From the NCBI RefSeq assembly GCF_040182365.1, contig NZ_CP144460.1, positions 4,766,935-4,830,934 on the forward strand: a stretch of 64,000 nt of DNA, written 5' to 3'. Below the pieces are notes generated by a model, which was given only the letters and a program-made list of their open reading frames with translations, was not told where the DNA came from and ran no database searches. Both the position numbers and the translations under genes were made by a program. Positions 2,314 to 11,038 of the stretch are shown piece by piece. The stretch comes from Xanthomonas sp. 10-10. Lineage in GTDB: Bacteria > Pseudomonadota > Gammaproteobacteria > Xanthomonadales > Xanthomonadaceae. Position 1 is the stretch's first letter. Every line of letters starts with the position of its first letter.

Positions 2314-3131
2314 GCCGGGTGCCGTTGACCCGCGAGGACACCGCGATTCTGGTGCCCGCCCTGAACGAGGCATTGCGCATCCGCGAAGTGGTCACCGATG
2401 CCTTGACCTACTGCTCGCATGTGATCGTGATCGACGATGGCTCCGACGATGGCACCGCCGATTGCATCGCCGATCTGCCGGTGCGCCTGATCCGCCATCC
2501 GCAGCGCATGGGCAAGGGCGCCGCGTTGCGCAGCGGCTTTGCGCAGGCGCAGCAGATGGGCATGCGCGCGGTGATGACCATGGATGGCGATGGCCAGCAC
2601 AAGGCCGCCGACTTCCCGCGCCTGCTGGCCGCGGCCAACCGCCACCCCGGCTGCGTGATCGTCGGTGCGCGCATGCGCAAGCGCGCCACCCAGCCGACCA
2701 TCCGCCGGATCGGCAACGACTTCGGCGACTGGGGCATCGCCTGGGCCTGCGGCTTTCGCCTGGTGGACAGCCAGAGCGGCCAACGGCTGTATCCGGCCTC
2801 GGTGTTCACCCTGCCCGACGTGCCCGGCGAAGGCTTCGTGTTCGAAGCGCAGCTGCTGATTTCCGCCGCCCGCCAGGCCGGCGCGCGCGTGGTCGCGGTG
2901 CCGATCGAAACCCGCTACGCCGGCAGCGCGCCGGGCACCTTCCGCAAGAGCCATTTCCGGCTGGTGCGCGATCTTTGGGAAATCACCTCGCATGTGGTCA
3001 AGCAGGTGTGGGCCTATGGCCACATCTGGCGCGAGTACCGCAACGTGCGCGCCAACCCGGTGTTGATCGACGATGCCGACGCCGAATTTGCTACTGTGCC
3101 CTCGCCTACCAAGAGCGACCCATCCCCATGA
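2310..3131 (+). CDS. Family 2 glycosyltransferase
   Basis: A 273-residue GT-A glycosyltransferase of the dolichyl-phosphate-mannose synthase-like type. The N-terminal nucleotide-binding strand is AILVPALNEALRIREV, then IVIDDGSDDGTAD, and the metal-binding DXD equivalent is TMDGDGQH. There is no obvious C-terminal membrane domain. It overlaps the genes on both sides by four bases (ATGA at 2310 and at 3128), so it belongs firmly to the pigment operon. A role in adding a sugar to the polyene or its lipid/glycerol anchor is inferred; the donor and acceptor cannot be read from the sequence. Confidence 0.88.
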   Translation: MSRVPLTREDTAILVPALNEALRIREVVTDALTYCSHVIVIDDGSDDGTADCIADLPVRLIRHPQRMGKGAALRSGFAQAQQMGMRAVMTMDGDGQHKAADFPRLLAAANRHPGCVIVGARMRKRATQPTIRRIGNDFGDWGIAWACGFRLVDSQSGQRLYPASVFTLPDVPGEGFVFEAQLLISAARQAGARVVAVPIETRYAGSAPGTFRKSHFRLVRDLWEITSHVVKQVWAYGHIWREYRNVRANPVLIDDADAEFATVPSPTKSDPSP

Positions 3132-6593: not shown

Positions 6594-8934
6594 TGGGTGT
6601 GCGCTCCAGTGCCGGCTCGCGCGACACCAGCAACGCCAGGATGAAATTGAACAACACGCCCAAGGCCACCGTGCTGCCGATCGCGCGCAGCACCGGGATG
6701 CTGGAGGCGGCCAGCAGCGCGAACACCAGCAATGTCATCAGGCTGCAGACGATCAACGCATGCAGCGTGCGCAGCTGATCGGCATGATCGTCGCCGGCAT
6801 GATCGAAGAACAAGGCGTAATCCAGGCCCAGGCCTGCGGCCAGAATCAGCGCGATCAGATGGAACAGGTTGAGCTCCACGCCGATGCCGCGCAGGATCGC
6901 CAGGATCAGCACGGTGGTCAGCGCCATCGGCAACAGCACACGCACGATACGGCGCGGATTGCGCAACGCGATCGCCACCGTCACTGCAAGCAGCAACGCC
7001 GCCACACCGAGCGCCCCCAGCACCCGGCCGCGGTAGGCGGCCACCAGCGATTCGGACGCGTCCTTGAGGTCCAGCAATTGCGCGCCGCTGCCCTGCACCG
7101 CCGCAGCCAACAGCGCCGGATCATGCAGGCCGGTCAGCGACACCAGGGCAGTCGTACGATCGCCGCGCCCCAATAGCAGGCCGCCCACCGACGTGGCCAG
7201 CGGCGAGCCGGTCAGATCCTTCGGCAGCAGCGGCGGCGCACGCTTGGCGGCATCCAGATCCTGCAGGAATGGCGCAAACGCATCGCTGCGGAATGGCGTG
7301 GCCGCCACCGCGCGCTCGGTCAGCGTGCGTGCCTGCGCCGCATCCGGCAACCGCGCCTGACGCGCCTGCTGGGTCTTGGCACTGGGCAGATACCGCGCGG
7401 CCATGTCGTAGCCGGTCAGGGCACCGTCGCGCACCAGCGCATCCAGCCGCGGCCGCAGGCGCTCGCTGGCCTGCAGCGCCGCCTCATCGCTGGCCGCAGA
7501 CAGCGCAAGCACGTAACGCACATCGGGCGCACCCAGCTCCTGACGCAAGCGGGTGTCCTGCGCCAATGCCTTGGGCGGCACCGGAGTGAGTTTGGACAGG
7601 TCGTTCTGCCAGAACTGGCCGGGCGCCAAAGCGATCACCGCAATGCCGATCACCGCGATCACTGCAAGGCTGATGCGTGGCCGCGGCAAGCGCGCGATGC
7701 CGCGCCACAGCCCAGCCAACAGGCGCGAATCGGCGTAGTCGCGCGGGGCCGGGTCGATCAGCCACGGCAACAGCCAACGCGTGGTCACCGCTGCAGTGGC
7801 CAGGCCGGCAATGGTGAACACCGCCAGCTGGCGCAGGCCATCCACGCCTGAAAACAGAAAGGTCACATACGCAATGCAGGTGGACACCACGCCGGTCGCC
7901 AGCGTCGGCCACAAATGCCGCGCGTTCTCGCGCGGATCCAGGCCGGGACGTTGATGGCTGAACAGGTGGATCGGGTAATCCTGCACCACGCCGATCAACG
8001 TGAAGCCGAATGCCACGGTGATCCCGTGCACGCCGTCGAACAGCAGTGCCACCGCGCCCAGGCCGGCCAGCCCCGCGCTCGCCAGCGGCAACACGCCCAG
8101 CACCGGAATCTTCCAGCTGCGGTAGGCGATCATCAGCAACAGCACCAGACCCACCGTATCCAGCGTGCCGATCCATTGCGACTCGCCCTGGGTGCGCGCG
8201 GTGATCTCCACCGCGAATGCGCCCGGGCCGGTCAAGGTCAGCTGCGTCGTGGTGCCCTTGCTGACCTTGGCGAACGCCGCCTGCACGGCGTCGTAGGCCA
8301 GCTGCTGGCCGGTAGGATCGAAGCCGGCCGCATGCGTCTGCACGATCAGCAGGGCCGAGGTACCGGCGCGATCGAACCACACCCCATTGCGCGTTTGCGG
8401 GGCGGCCGCCGGCTGCAGGGTCTCGGCCAGATGCAGCACTTCCAGCGTCGGGTCGCGCGGCAGCAGCGGCTCCACCATCGCCGCTGCCGGCGAGCCCAGA
8501 TCCTGCACGCGCGACTGCAACGCAGCTTCAAGCGTCGCCGCATCCAGCGCTGCGGTGTCGAAACTGTCGCTCAGCAGGTAGCGATACGGCAGCAAGCGCT
8601 CCGGAATCGCCTCCAATCCGGCAGTGCCGCCATTACCGACCAACTCGAACAGCGCCGGCTGCGCGGCCAGTGCCTGCTGCAACCGTTGCGATTGCTCGGC
8701 CAGGATGGCCGGGTCGCTATTGGACAAGGCCATCAGCAACAGCCGCGACCCCGGGCCTTCGCCCAGCTCTTCGATCAGCAGTTTTTGCGCCGGCGTACGC
8801 GGGGCAGGCATGAATTTTCGCAGATCGCCGGTGACCTTGAGCGTCTCGCTCAGCCAGAACCCGGCCACCACCAGCAGCGCCAGCCACAGCAAGGCCAGGC
8901 CAATGCGGCGGTTTGCGTTCAATTCAAAGGGCAT
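6568..8934 (-). CDS. MMPL/RND-family exporter of the pigment locus
   Basis: A 788-residue integral membrane protein with the two-fold arrangement of MMPL/HpnN-type RND exporters: one N-terminal helix (LALLWLALLVVAGFWL), a periplasmic loop, a block of helices around residues 230-400, then a second loop and helix block to the C-terminus. Aryl-polyene clusters regularly carry such a protein, presumed to move the lipid-linked pigment across the inner membrane, probably with the LolA-like carrier encoded upstream. The start at 8934 is the innermost of three tandem copies of the same 5' region; the two outer copies only give 74-residue ORFs. Confidence 0.88.
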   Translation of the reverse strand: MPFELNANRRIGLALLWLALLVVAGFWLSETLKVTGDLRKFMPAPRTPAQKLLIEELGEGPGSRLLLMALSNSDPAILAEQSQRLQQALAAQPALFELVGNGGTAGLEAIPERLLPYRYLLSDSFDTAALDAATLEAALQSRVQDLGSPAAAMVEPLLPRDPTLEVLHLAETLQPAAAPQTRNGVWFDRAGTSALLIVQTHAAGFDPTGQQLAYDAVQAAFAKVSKGTTTQLTLTGPGAFAVEITARTQGESQWIGTLDTVGLVLLLMIAYRSWKIPVLGVLPLASAGLAGLGAVALLFDGVHGITVAFGFTLIGVVQDYPIHLFSHQRPGLDPRENARHLWPTLATGVVSTCIAYVTFLFSGVDGLRQLAVFTIAGLATAAVTTRWLLPWLIDPAPRDYADSRLLAGLWRGIARLPRPRISLAVIAVIGIAVIALAPGQFWQNDLSKLTPVPPKALAQDTRLRQELGAPDVRYVLALSAASDEAALQASERLRPRLDALVRDGALTGYDMAARYLPSAKTQQARQARLPDAAQARTLTERAVAATPFRSDAFAPFLQDLDAAKRAPPLLPKDLTGSPLATSVGGLLLGRGDRTTALVSLTGLHDPALLAAAVQGSGAQLLDLKDASESLVAAYRGRVLGALGVAALLLAVTVAIALRNPRRIVRVLLPMALTTVLILAILRGIGVELNLFHLIALILAAGLGLDYALFFDHAGDDHADQLRTLHALIVCSLMTLLVFALLAASSIPVLRAIGSTVALGVLFNFILALLVSREPALERTPSGASHAGT

Positions 8935-9148
8935 GCAACCGCCTCACTGCAATGGCTGGACGTCCACCGGCCGCGCGCGCGGCATCGGGCCACTTCGGCG
9001 TTTTCTTTCTACGGAGGGCGGGCATGAATTTTCGCAGATCGCCAGTGACCTTGAGCGTCTCGCTCAGCCAGAACCCGGCCACCACCAGCAGCGCCAGCCA
9101 CAGCAAGGCCAGGCCAATGCGGCGGTTTGCGTTCAATTCAAACGGCAT
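8924..9148 (-). CDS. 74-residue truncated MMPL leader copy (middle repeat)
   Basis: The middle copy begins with the same residues as the exporter (MPFELNANRRIGLALLWLAL), includes its first membrane helix, then at FMPA switches to a basic tail (LRRKKTPKWPDAARAAGG) encoded by the spacer. The TGA at 8926-8924 overlaps the exporter's own ATG at 8934 by 11 bases, an arrangement that allows translational coupling. It may be translated as a single-pass membrane micropeptide, or be only a decayed duplicate. No experimental basis for expression can be read here. Confidence 0.5.
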   Translation of the reverse strand: MPFELNANRRIGLALLWLALLVVAGFWLSETLKVTGDLRKFMPALRRKKTPKWPDAARAAGGRPAIAVRRLHAL

Positions 9149-9362
9149 GCGACCGCCTCACTGCAATGGCTGGACGTCCACCGGCCGCGCGCGCGGCATC
9201 GGGCCACTTCGGCGTTTTCTTTCTGCGGAGGGCGGGCATGAATTTTCGCAGATCGCCGGTGACCTTGAGCGTCTCGCTCAGCCAGAACCCGGCCACCACC
9301 AGCACCGCCAGCCACAGCAAGGCCAGGCCAATGCGGCGGTTTGCGTTCAATTCAAACGGCAT
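9138..9362 (-). CDS. 74-residue truncated MMPL leader copy (outer repeat)
   Basis: The outermost copy, nearest the LolA-like gene, again encodes the exporter's first helix (here with LAVLVVAGFWL) and the same basic spacer-encoded tail ending near position 9138, where it overlaps the start of the middle copy by 11 bases. Its ATG at 9362 probably sits where the ancestral MMPL start was, because the sequence upstream of it differs from that upstream of the other copies. An in-frame ATG at 9446 would add 28 non-homologous residues and is less likely. Confidence 0.45.
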   Translation of the reverse strand: MPFELNANRRIGLALLWLAVLVVAGFWLSETLKVTGDLRKFMPALRRKKTPKWPDAARAAGGRPAIAVRRSHAV

Positions 9363-9492
9363 GCACCCGCCTCGCTGCAATGGGCGACGTCGGCGCTGCG
9401 AACCGTACCGGCCAGCAGTACTGCGACACCTTGGCAGCAAGCACACGATCTGGCGATTTTGACGACGGCTAGCGAGACCTGCCCGCGCGTGG

Positions 9493-10140
9493 TCACGCGC
9501 CCGAACCGTGACAGAGCGCGGTCAGCGCTGCGGTATCGCTGACGCCGGCCGCCGCACGTGCCGCGCTGGCCAGCAGCGTGCGTTGCACGTCGCCCTTGGC
9601 TGGCACGCTTTCGATGCAGCGCAGCTCATCGGTGCTGCCGTAGAGACGCAGTTCGCGCACCTGCTTGGCCACTGCGGCGTCCTTGGGCTGCAGGGTCAGC
9701 TGCCAGACCTGCGCCGTGCCTTGCCCACCGAGGCGATACTGCTGCTCCAGCAACGCGCGATCTCCCGACAACAGCGCACCGAAGCCGGACTTCAAACCGG
9801 CCAGTTCGGGCACGCGGCTCAACGCGAACTTGCGCGGCGGTTTGCCCTCGCGTTCGAGCACGCCTTCGTCGCCCCGCAAGGTGGTGGTTTCGCGATACGG
9901 CGCACTGACCTCGCGCACCAGCGTCTGCGCATCCGGGCGGCGGTAATGGCCCTGCACGCGCAACGGCGTCTTCAGTAGCGCAGAACCGCGCAGTTCGACG
10001 AACTCGGTACTGACCGGGGCCGGGCGGGCCAGGCGCTGCAGCACCTGGCCGACGTCCAGCGTCTCAGGCGGTGCGGCGCATAGCGGTGCGGCGCTGAACA
10101 GCAGTATCAGCATCCACGGCAGGGTGCGGCGCATCGGCAT
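9493..10140 (-). CDS. LolA-like outer-membrane lipoprotein carrier
   Basis: A 215-residue periplasmic protein with signal peptide MRRTLPWMLILLFSAAPLCAA and a LolA-like half-barrel pattern: an early VSTEFVELRGSALLKTPLRV strand pair and LVREVSAPYRETTTLRGD. LolA-like proteins carry lipidated cargo through the periplasm; in aryl-polyene loci they are thought to take the pigment lipid from the MMPL exporter to the outer membrane. The ATG at 10140 is chosen (10134 is equally possible), since the longer frame only shadows the acyltransferase gene, whose 3' end it overlaps by about 75 bases. Confidence 0.85.
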   Translation of the reverse strand: MPMRRTLPWMLILLFSAAPLCAAPPETLDVGQVLQRLARPAPVSTEFVELRGSALLKTPLRVQGHYRRPDAQTLVREVSAPYRETTTLRGDEGVLEREGKPPRKFALSRVPELAGLKSGFGALLSGDRALLEQQYRLGGQGTAQVWQLTLQPKDAAVAKQVRELRLYGSTDELRCIESVPAKGDVQRTLLASAARAAAGVSDTAALTALCHGSGA

Positions 10141-11038
10141 GGTGAGTGTTCCAGAAATCGTAGAAGTTGAACCAGTTGTACGGCGCGTAGCGTGTGTAAT
10201 GTTCCAGCCTGGCGGCGTAATCGCGCATGAGCACGGCAAGCACCGGCGCACGTTGCCTGCGCGGCACGTCCAGGCCTTCGCTGAAGGTCTCGAACGCCAG
10301 CTCGTAATGGTTGCCGCCGCGATACAGGCCGAACGCCAGCACCACCGGCACCTTGAGCGCGGCGGCGATCAGCCACGGCGAGGTCGGGAACATCGCGTTG
10401 CGGCCGAGGAACATCGCCGGCAACGCCGGGTCGCCTTCGCGCGGGCGATCGATCAGCAGCGCCACCAGCGCGCCGGCATCGGTGGCGTCCTTGATCGCCA
10501 TGACGATCGAGGTCGCATCCATGCCGGCATCGATGATGTTGGCGGCCAGCTGCGGGTTCAGTGCGCCCAGCAGGTCGGTCATTGCGCGATTGTGGGCCTT
10601 GTCCAGCACCACCTTGACCTGCACGTCCGGCCGCTCGGTGGCCAGCACGCGCAGCGCATCGAAGCTGCCCAGGTGCGAGCCGAAAATCAGCACGCCGCGG
10701 CCGCGGTCCATCTGCGTGTGCAGCTGATCCAGCCCGGTGATGTCGACGCGGAAGCGCTGCATCTGCCCGCACAGCATGTACACGCGGTCCAGGATAGTCG
10801 ACGCAAACGTATGGATATGCCGCGCCACATCGCGCAGCGTGGCCGGGCGATCCAGCACGCGGGTCAGATAGGCACGCGAGGCGCTACGTTCGGGCGCACG
10901 CACCACCAGGAAGTACAGCGTGATCGGGTACAACAGCGCGCGCCCCACCGCGCGTCCGGCGTGCTGGGCGATGCCACGGATCAGCCACAGCGCGAAACGT
11001 CCGCCGCCTTCCGGGCGTTGCTTCCACTGACTGCTCAT
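10064..11038 (-). CDS. LpxL/HtrB-like lysophospholipid acyltransferase
   Basis: A 324-residue LpxL/HtrB-type acyltransferase. It shows the conserved GSHLGSFDALRVLATE (HxxxxD-type motif: His-Leu-Gly-Ser-Phe-Asp), then LLIDRPREGDPALPAMFLGR and FPTSPWLIAAALKVPVVLAF, typical of this family. It would transfer an acyl group, here plausibly the aryl-polyene from its ACP to a lipid. The start ATG at 11038 overlaps the preceding dehydratase stop by four bases (ATGA), and the tail overlaps the LolA-like gene. It is inner-membrane associated by family knowledge, though no strong membrane helix is obvious beyond the N-terminal hydrophobic stretch. Confidence 0.88.
   Translation of the reverse strand: MSSQWKQRPEGGGRFALWLIRGIAQHAGRAVGRALLYPITLYFLVVRAPERSASRAYLTRVLDRPATLRDVARHIHTFASTILDRVYMLCGQMQRFRVDITGLDQLHTQMDRGRGVLIFGSHLGSFDALRVLATERPDVQVKVVLDKAHNRAMTDLLGALNPQLAANIIDAGMDATSIVMAIKDATDAGALVALLIDRPREGDPALPAMFLGRNAMFPTSPWLIAAALKVPVVLAFGLYRGGNHYELAFETFSEGLDVPRRQRAPVLAVLMRDYAARLEHYTRYAPYNWFNFYDFWNTHHADAPHPAVDADTAVQRRTAMRRTA

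Follow-up and report, generated by a model that had tools for sequence, protein, structure and literature searches.

A linker reading frame and tandem exporter starts may form a reinitiation relay between a LolA-like gene and an MMPL exporter in Xanthomonas

The window analysed here, a stretch of 64,000 nucleotides from Xanthomonas sp. 10-10, carries on its minus strand a LolA-like gene followed by a linker ORF, two outer ORFs and a full MMPL exporter gene (Table 1). The genome is one 5.17-Mb contig, and a query with the array matches a single place in it. Ketoreductase-, FabA- and acyltransferase-type proteins are encoded in the neighbourhood, and by its gene content the cluster resembles an aryl polyene (xanthomonadin) cluster in which the adjacent LolA-like and MMPL genes would be the export module. 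The corresponding pair in E. coli is apeL-apeM, where a LolA-like gene likewise precedes an RND/MMPL gene close to dehydratase, acyltransferase and ketoreductase genes; the passages cited make no mention of a linker or an array (PMC8253772). From the LolA stop to the first exporter start the distance is 133, and the stops and starts along the whole chain overlap as in coupled gene pairs, first as GTGA and then by 16, 11 and 11 nt.

Table 1. Coordinates of the features at the exporter locus, numbered within the window
Feature	Position	Strand	Remarks
LolA-like gene	9493..10251	-	PF19574 LolA_3, E 1.1e-101; GTG start as listed, putative
Linker ORF, 49 codons	9347..9496	-	GTG on the LolA stop (GTGA); stop 16 nt into the first exporter-start copy
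Outer ORF 1, 74 codons	9138..9362	-	Exporter N-terminus and linker-type tail; stop 11 nt into the next start
Outer ORF 2, 74 codons	8924..9148	-	Built as outer ORF 1; stop 11 nt into the exporter start
Full MMPL exporter, 788 codons	6568..8934	-	PF03176 MMPL
Three 214-nt units	8796..9437	-	Repeat-finder listing; third unit repeats only in part
Palindrome GCCGCGCGCGCGGC, tail of outer ORF 2	8970..8983	no strand
Palindrome GCCGCGCGCGCGGC, tail of outer ORF 1	9184..9197	no strand
Two-frame stop trap at the exporter start	8919..8934	-	Other two frames closed by stops that end 11 and 16 nt past the ATG's A

The original prediction described a tandem triplication of the exporter start, and this description holds. 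The three ATGs lie at 9362, 9148 and 8934 of the minus strand, spaced by exactly 214 nt; both outer ORFs (9362-9138 and 9148-8924, 74 codons each) open with the first 43 residues of the exporter, with one L/V difference in the outermost, and end 11 nt inside the next copy. The hydrophobic segment that had been described as the first membrane helix is retained in both (Kyte-Doolittle maximum of 2.33-2.35, residues 11-29). An assembly duplicate is ruled out, as already suggested, by differences between the two inner 214-nt units at six positions and by the occurrence of arrays in several independent genomes. The stretch preceding the outermost copy has diverged (79% identity over the unit). What had been called a basic, spacer-coded tail has to be redefined, since the tails of the outer ORFs are homologous to the linker ends of related genomes and their basicity varies among species; this homology also rejects the tail as a chance reading frame. 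AARAA is common to the tail and the 3' end of the LolA-like gene, and a tail copied from that 3' end is a candidate idea.

The linker was compared in 35 rows, consisting of the window and 34 named loci (L047, whose contig begins inside the gene, was excluded), and in every one of these rows its frame runs uninterrupted from the LolA stop to a stop 1-16 nt into the exporter; the rows are related, and hence their counts are not independent. Its start is placed on the LolA stop, with GTG at GTGA in 31 rows, ATG at ATGA in one and ATG at TGATG or TAATG in three. Linkers have 10-86 codons and bridge gaps of 31-249 nt. In clade 2 the gap length is a multiple of three, apart from the window's group, where it measures 133 or 136 nt and the frame is open nonetheless, ending at +16; in the clade-1 rows and in X. 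massiliensis division by three leaves a remainder of one, and the 18 of 20 clade-1 genomes that could be measured are all consistent with this value. Within each group the linker length varies in threes. The linkers of the X. hortorum group (L075 and L052, upstream of position 3001) contain short internal repeats of CAGCCCGCCCTCAG type, indicating that linkers also grow by small in-frame repeats.

Selection on the linker peptide seems to be weak. In nine genomes with linkers of equal length, pN/pS is 0.80 for the linker frame and 0.97 and 1.02 for the other two frames, compared with 0.08 for exporter codons 1-44 and 0.27 for the end of the LolA-like gene. The place where the frame ends is far less free. 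Exporter codon 3 is TTT, CTT or GTT in all 28 clade-2 genes (again related rows, not independent ones), whereas from codon 5 onward the same genes use CTT for 72 of 3903 Leu (1.8%), TTT for 100 of 716 Phe and GTT for 19 of 1531 Val, and a third-base T occurs at any other codon from 2 to 20 in at most 5 of the 28. Codon 4 encodes Glu or Lys throughout (28/28), which makes the overlapping stop a TGA or a TAA. At the exporter start in clade 2 the two remaining frames are both closed, at +11 in 28/28 and at +16 in 27/28 genes, forming a two-frame trap, and clade-1 exporter genes start with ATGA or GTGA in 20/20. Judged by the codon 3 control together with the 35 open linkers, the overlap appears to be conserved beyond chance, and the linker peptide appears to drift near neutrality while the linker stop is held.

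Outside the Xanthomonas branch, an in-frame ATG or GTG coincides exactly with the LolA stop (-1 or +2) at 32 of the 40 measurable loci (43 in all), and the remaining eight have later starts or longer gaps. The LolA-like stop and the exporter start thus overlap directly in most non-Xanthomonas relatives. In Xanthomonas the gap is filled by the linker ORF, by which a terminating ribosome would be set down on the next start. In the passages cited, 13 of 14 overlapping gene pairs are strictly coupled (PMC6728339), while a gap of 38 nt removes 80-90% of the reinitiation in two E. coli pairs and all of it in another (PMC10666635). A linker that turns such a gap into two overlaps agrees with this published sensitivity. 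A tandem duplication, probably between short identical sequences such as GCCCGCCC in clade 2 or ATGCCGG in clade 1, would then have fused exporter codon 42-43 to the linker. Its products would be in-frame ORFs with the exporter N-terminus and a linker tail, each stopping on the next start, and ribosomes may pass from the linker through outer ORF 1 and outer ORF 2 to the exporter.

We consider it rather probable that the linker and the tandem outer ORFs constitute a reinitiation relay, handing ribosomes from the LolA-like gene to the exporter. Most likely, the linker keeps termination-reinitiation coupling across the enlarged gap and the tandem copies lengthen the relay. The chain of coupled leaders first proposed for the window thus survives in comparative terms, as all 23 outer ORFs compared overlap the next start by 1-16 nt and the overlapping stop is constrained. 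Several observations count against the relay. The chance of one linker being open, given its composition, is 0.26-0.44; a Shine-Dalgarno-like sequence at the starts (GAGG in the window) makes de novo initiation possible; and the exporter start region is not unusually folded when compared with shuffles (z of 0.05, 0.37 and -1.02). The predicted fold of window positions 8895-9010 pairs GGCGGUUGC, in the Shine-Dalgarno region of the exporter, with GCAAACCGCC (codons 7-10), at a stability no higher than that of shuffles.

Of 395 family genomes, 245 gave a match to a profile of the exporter N-terminus, and 226 of these have one copy, a count that sets a lower limit on copy number because draft assemblies can collapse 214-nt repeats. 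The window's genus group contributes 10 genomes with more than one copy out of 35, counting G016, whose copy is split between two contig ends, and G006, which has an N gap. A second Xanthomonas group contributes 8 of 20 and a third genus one of eight matching genomes, and no array was found in the other 182 profile-matching family genomes. Across the two Xanthomonas groups, arrays of 2-4 copies with units of 214-221 nt were found in 18/55 genomes, two of these arrays being incomplete. The proposal that copy number can change without harm to the last gene is supported by 1-4 copies between species and by a sister pair, with two copies in X. arboricola pv. populi and one in pv. juglandis, although the latter is a draft that could be collapsed. 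In Xanthomonas sp. 3793, the second genome of the window's species (L005/L039), two or more copies are present, and the upstream one contains a run of 98 N. In the X. euvesicatoria genome G016 (L025, L038) the contig breaks fall within the repeated exporter start, suggesting a collapsed array. Moreover, two outer-type ORFs of Lysobacter cavernae (P0061 and P0066) have consecutive locus tags on one contig, which indicates that arrays exist in a Lysobacter too.

None of the 23 outer ORFs read as DNA is broken, and their overlaps with the next start are 11 nt in 13 clade-2 ORFs, 4 nt in eight and 1 nt in one of the nine from clade 1, and 16 nt in genome G139. Two X. citri database entries (P0029 and P0030) look frame-shifted and, judged from protein letters only, probably stop before the next start, which counts against the relay; a further entry, P0027, is frame-shifted but has the end expected from the trap's second stop (protein letters only).

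These data also bear on whether the tandem copies have any effect. The coupling through the linker might be real while the copies are a harmless and unstable slip product, in frame and gene-converted but effectless, which we regard as a possible explanation, though a doubtful one. It is favoured by the exporter tree, on which the array (11 of 34 rows) requires nine changes and is scattered like shuffled labels (236 of 500 shuffles as low), by the relaxed tail peptides described below, by an Arg in the hydrophobic segment of one outer copy (L119) and by the possibly broken copies in X. citri. However, all 23 outer ORFs read are intact, and the arrays appear to be old although a direct repeat of 214 nt is expected to be lost easily. 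Over their first 34 nt, the tails of 16 of the 17 arrays agree at 76-97% with the closest tail from a different species (44% in G139), but in 14 of the 17 this stretch is no closer to the linker of its own genome than shuffles (at least 15 of 300 as high); in a comparison over 60 nt, which allowed free end gaps, the cross-clade values are unreliable. Tails matching their own linker occur in L054 and L127 (0 of 300 shuffles as high) and, weakly, in G139 (10/300). A fresh local duplication in each species is accordingly not supported for those 14 arrays, and the tails common to different species suggest that the array is old and was often lost. We read the distribution as old descent with many losses, while exchange of arrays between strains may be another route.

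Copies from the same genome group with good support in four of ten array genomes (the window, melonis, nasturtii and AmX2) and with weaker support in cissicola, and the tree gives no grouping in the remaining ones; such grouping fits homogenisation. A mobile repeat is ruled out in the window genome by its single locus, and a search of that genome with the tail gave full-length matches at the two array copies alone.

The outer ORFs might instead encode real small membrane proteins, made of exporter helix 1 and a tail, with a function in exporter assembly or in some other process. A database search with an outer ORF found 37 proteins and one with an alignment found 179, of which 120 were listed. 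The matches listed come from Xanthomonas, Luteimonas, Lysobacter and metagenomes, are mostly unnamed or called hypothetical protein or putative or predicted exporter, and include many relatives of 64-78 residues. Among the matches listed, the FMP motif is missing in five of 125 entries examined, and in 91 of the 120 FMP entries the motif is followed, at a distance of exactly 12 residues, by AAxAA or AVATA; twelve others are simple fragments of the exporter, and the remainder deviate, including one-sided AARTA (2) and AGRAA (2). The outer cores are also conserved, with pN/pS of 0.12 in clade 2 and 0.29 in clade 1 (0.10 and 0.20 for last-copy cores), and differences within genomes at codons 6-43 comprise 17 synonymous and 7 other changes, shared ones being counted repeatedly. 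However, gene conversion also predicts this likeness and could explain the conservation of the outer cores, while the tails, with pN/pS of 0.67 in clade 2 and 0.78 in clade 1, disfavour a strongly selected peptide. Most exporter-bearing family genomes, 226 of 245 with one copy, also lack such an ORF. We find a small-protein role unlikely.

The AAxAA stretch corresponds in Xanthomonas DNA to a 14-bp palindrome, GCCGCGCGCGCGGC, which is present in each window tail and recurs in clade-1 tails and in the majority of clade-2 linkers. The repeated unit could conceivably serve this palindrome, as an RNA hairpin or a binding site regulating the exporter, with the ORFs being incidental, but we think this very improbable. 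In its favour, all 22 tails compared have a GC palindrome (15 or more of 20 letters) 52-56 nt upstream of the next start, and it scores at least 16 in 21/28 clade-2 linkers; a double change in X. prunicola preserves it, and G139 has GCCGT....ACGGC. On the other hand, a conserved RNA structure is not supported by Rfam, where the search gave no family, by fold z-scores or by covariation, which is not above shuffles (259/500). Furthermore, GCCGCGCGCGCGGC occurs at six places in the whole genome, the window's own linker is without the palindrome, no sigma-70-like promoter was found in the unit, and the held stop codon is left unexplained.

If the relay reading is followed further, units would come and go by recombination with the last gene left intact, consistent with the copy variation observed, and some ribosomes would be lost at each step, so that copy number probably alters exporter output, in either direction. 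The locus might then act as a translational contingency locus, kept since before the two Xanthomonas clades split, where recombination alters how many relay ORFs there are and this number determines the exporter dose, any copy number is in frame and the two-frame stop trap catches frame-shifted ribosomes; we view this extension as rather unlikely.

Reinitiation coupling, ribosome-delivering short ORFs and the mycobacterial MIRUs are known (PMC12548453), and no publication on this linker or array was found in the open-licence literature, covered in part by passages. In the passages cited, coupled genes share with the present locus the ATGA, GTGA and TGATG overlaps between neighbours (PMC6728339, PMC10666635), whereas here a short ORF of free sequence bridges the gap, overlaps of 11 and 16 nt occur too, and the extra ORFs repeat, in tandem, the start of the very gene that lies downstream. 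MIRUs are likewise short repeated units with an ORF coupled to the following gene, and the Xanthomonas unit also carries an ORF overlapping the following start; however, MIRUs are described there as mobile, inserting at start codons with a -4 spacing (PMC12548453), while the Xanthomonas unit is confined to one locus and bears the exporter's own N-terminus. Ribosome-delivering short ORFs and engineered bicistronic designs are similar in that a short ORF may only feed the next start (PMC12548453), but here several stand in series, in a natural operon and in variable number. If true, this would be a natural example of a gene that is coupled by way of duplicates of its own start, with selection keeping an ORF open but leaving its peptide almost unconstrained. 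Genomes with 1, 2, 3 and 4 units would then form a natural series in which ribosome survival per reinitiation step could be measured, and the relay would give meaning to many entries of about 65-95 residues that go by the names 'hypothetical protein' or 'putative exporter' in Xanthomonas and related bacteria.
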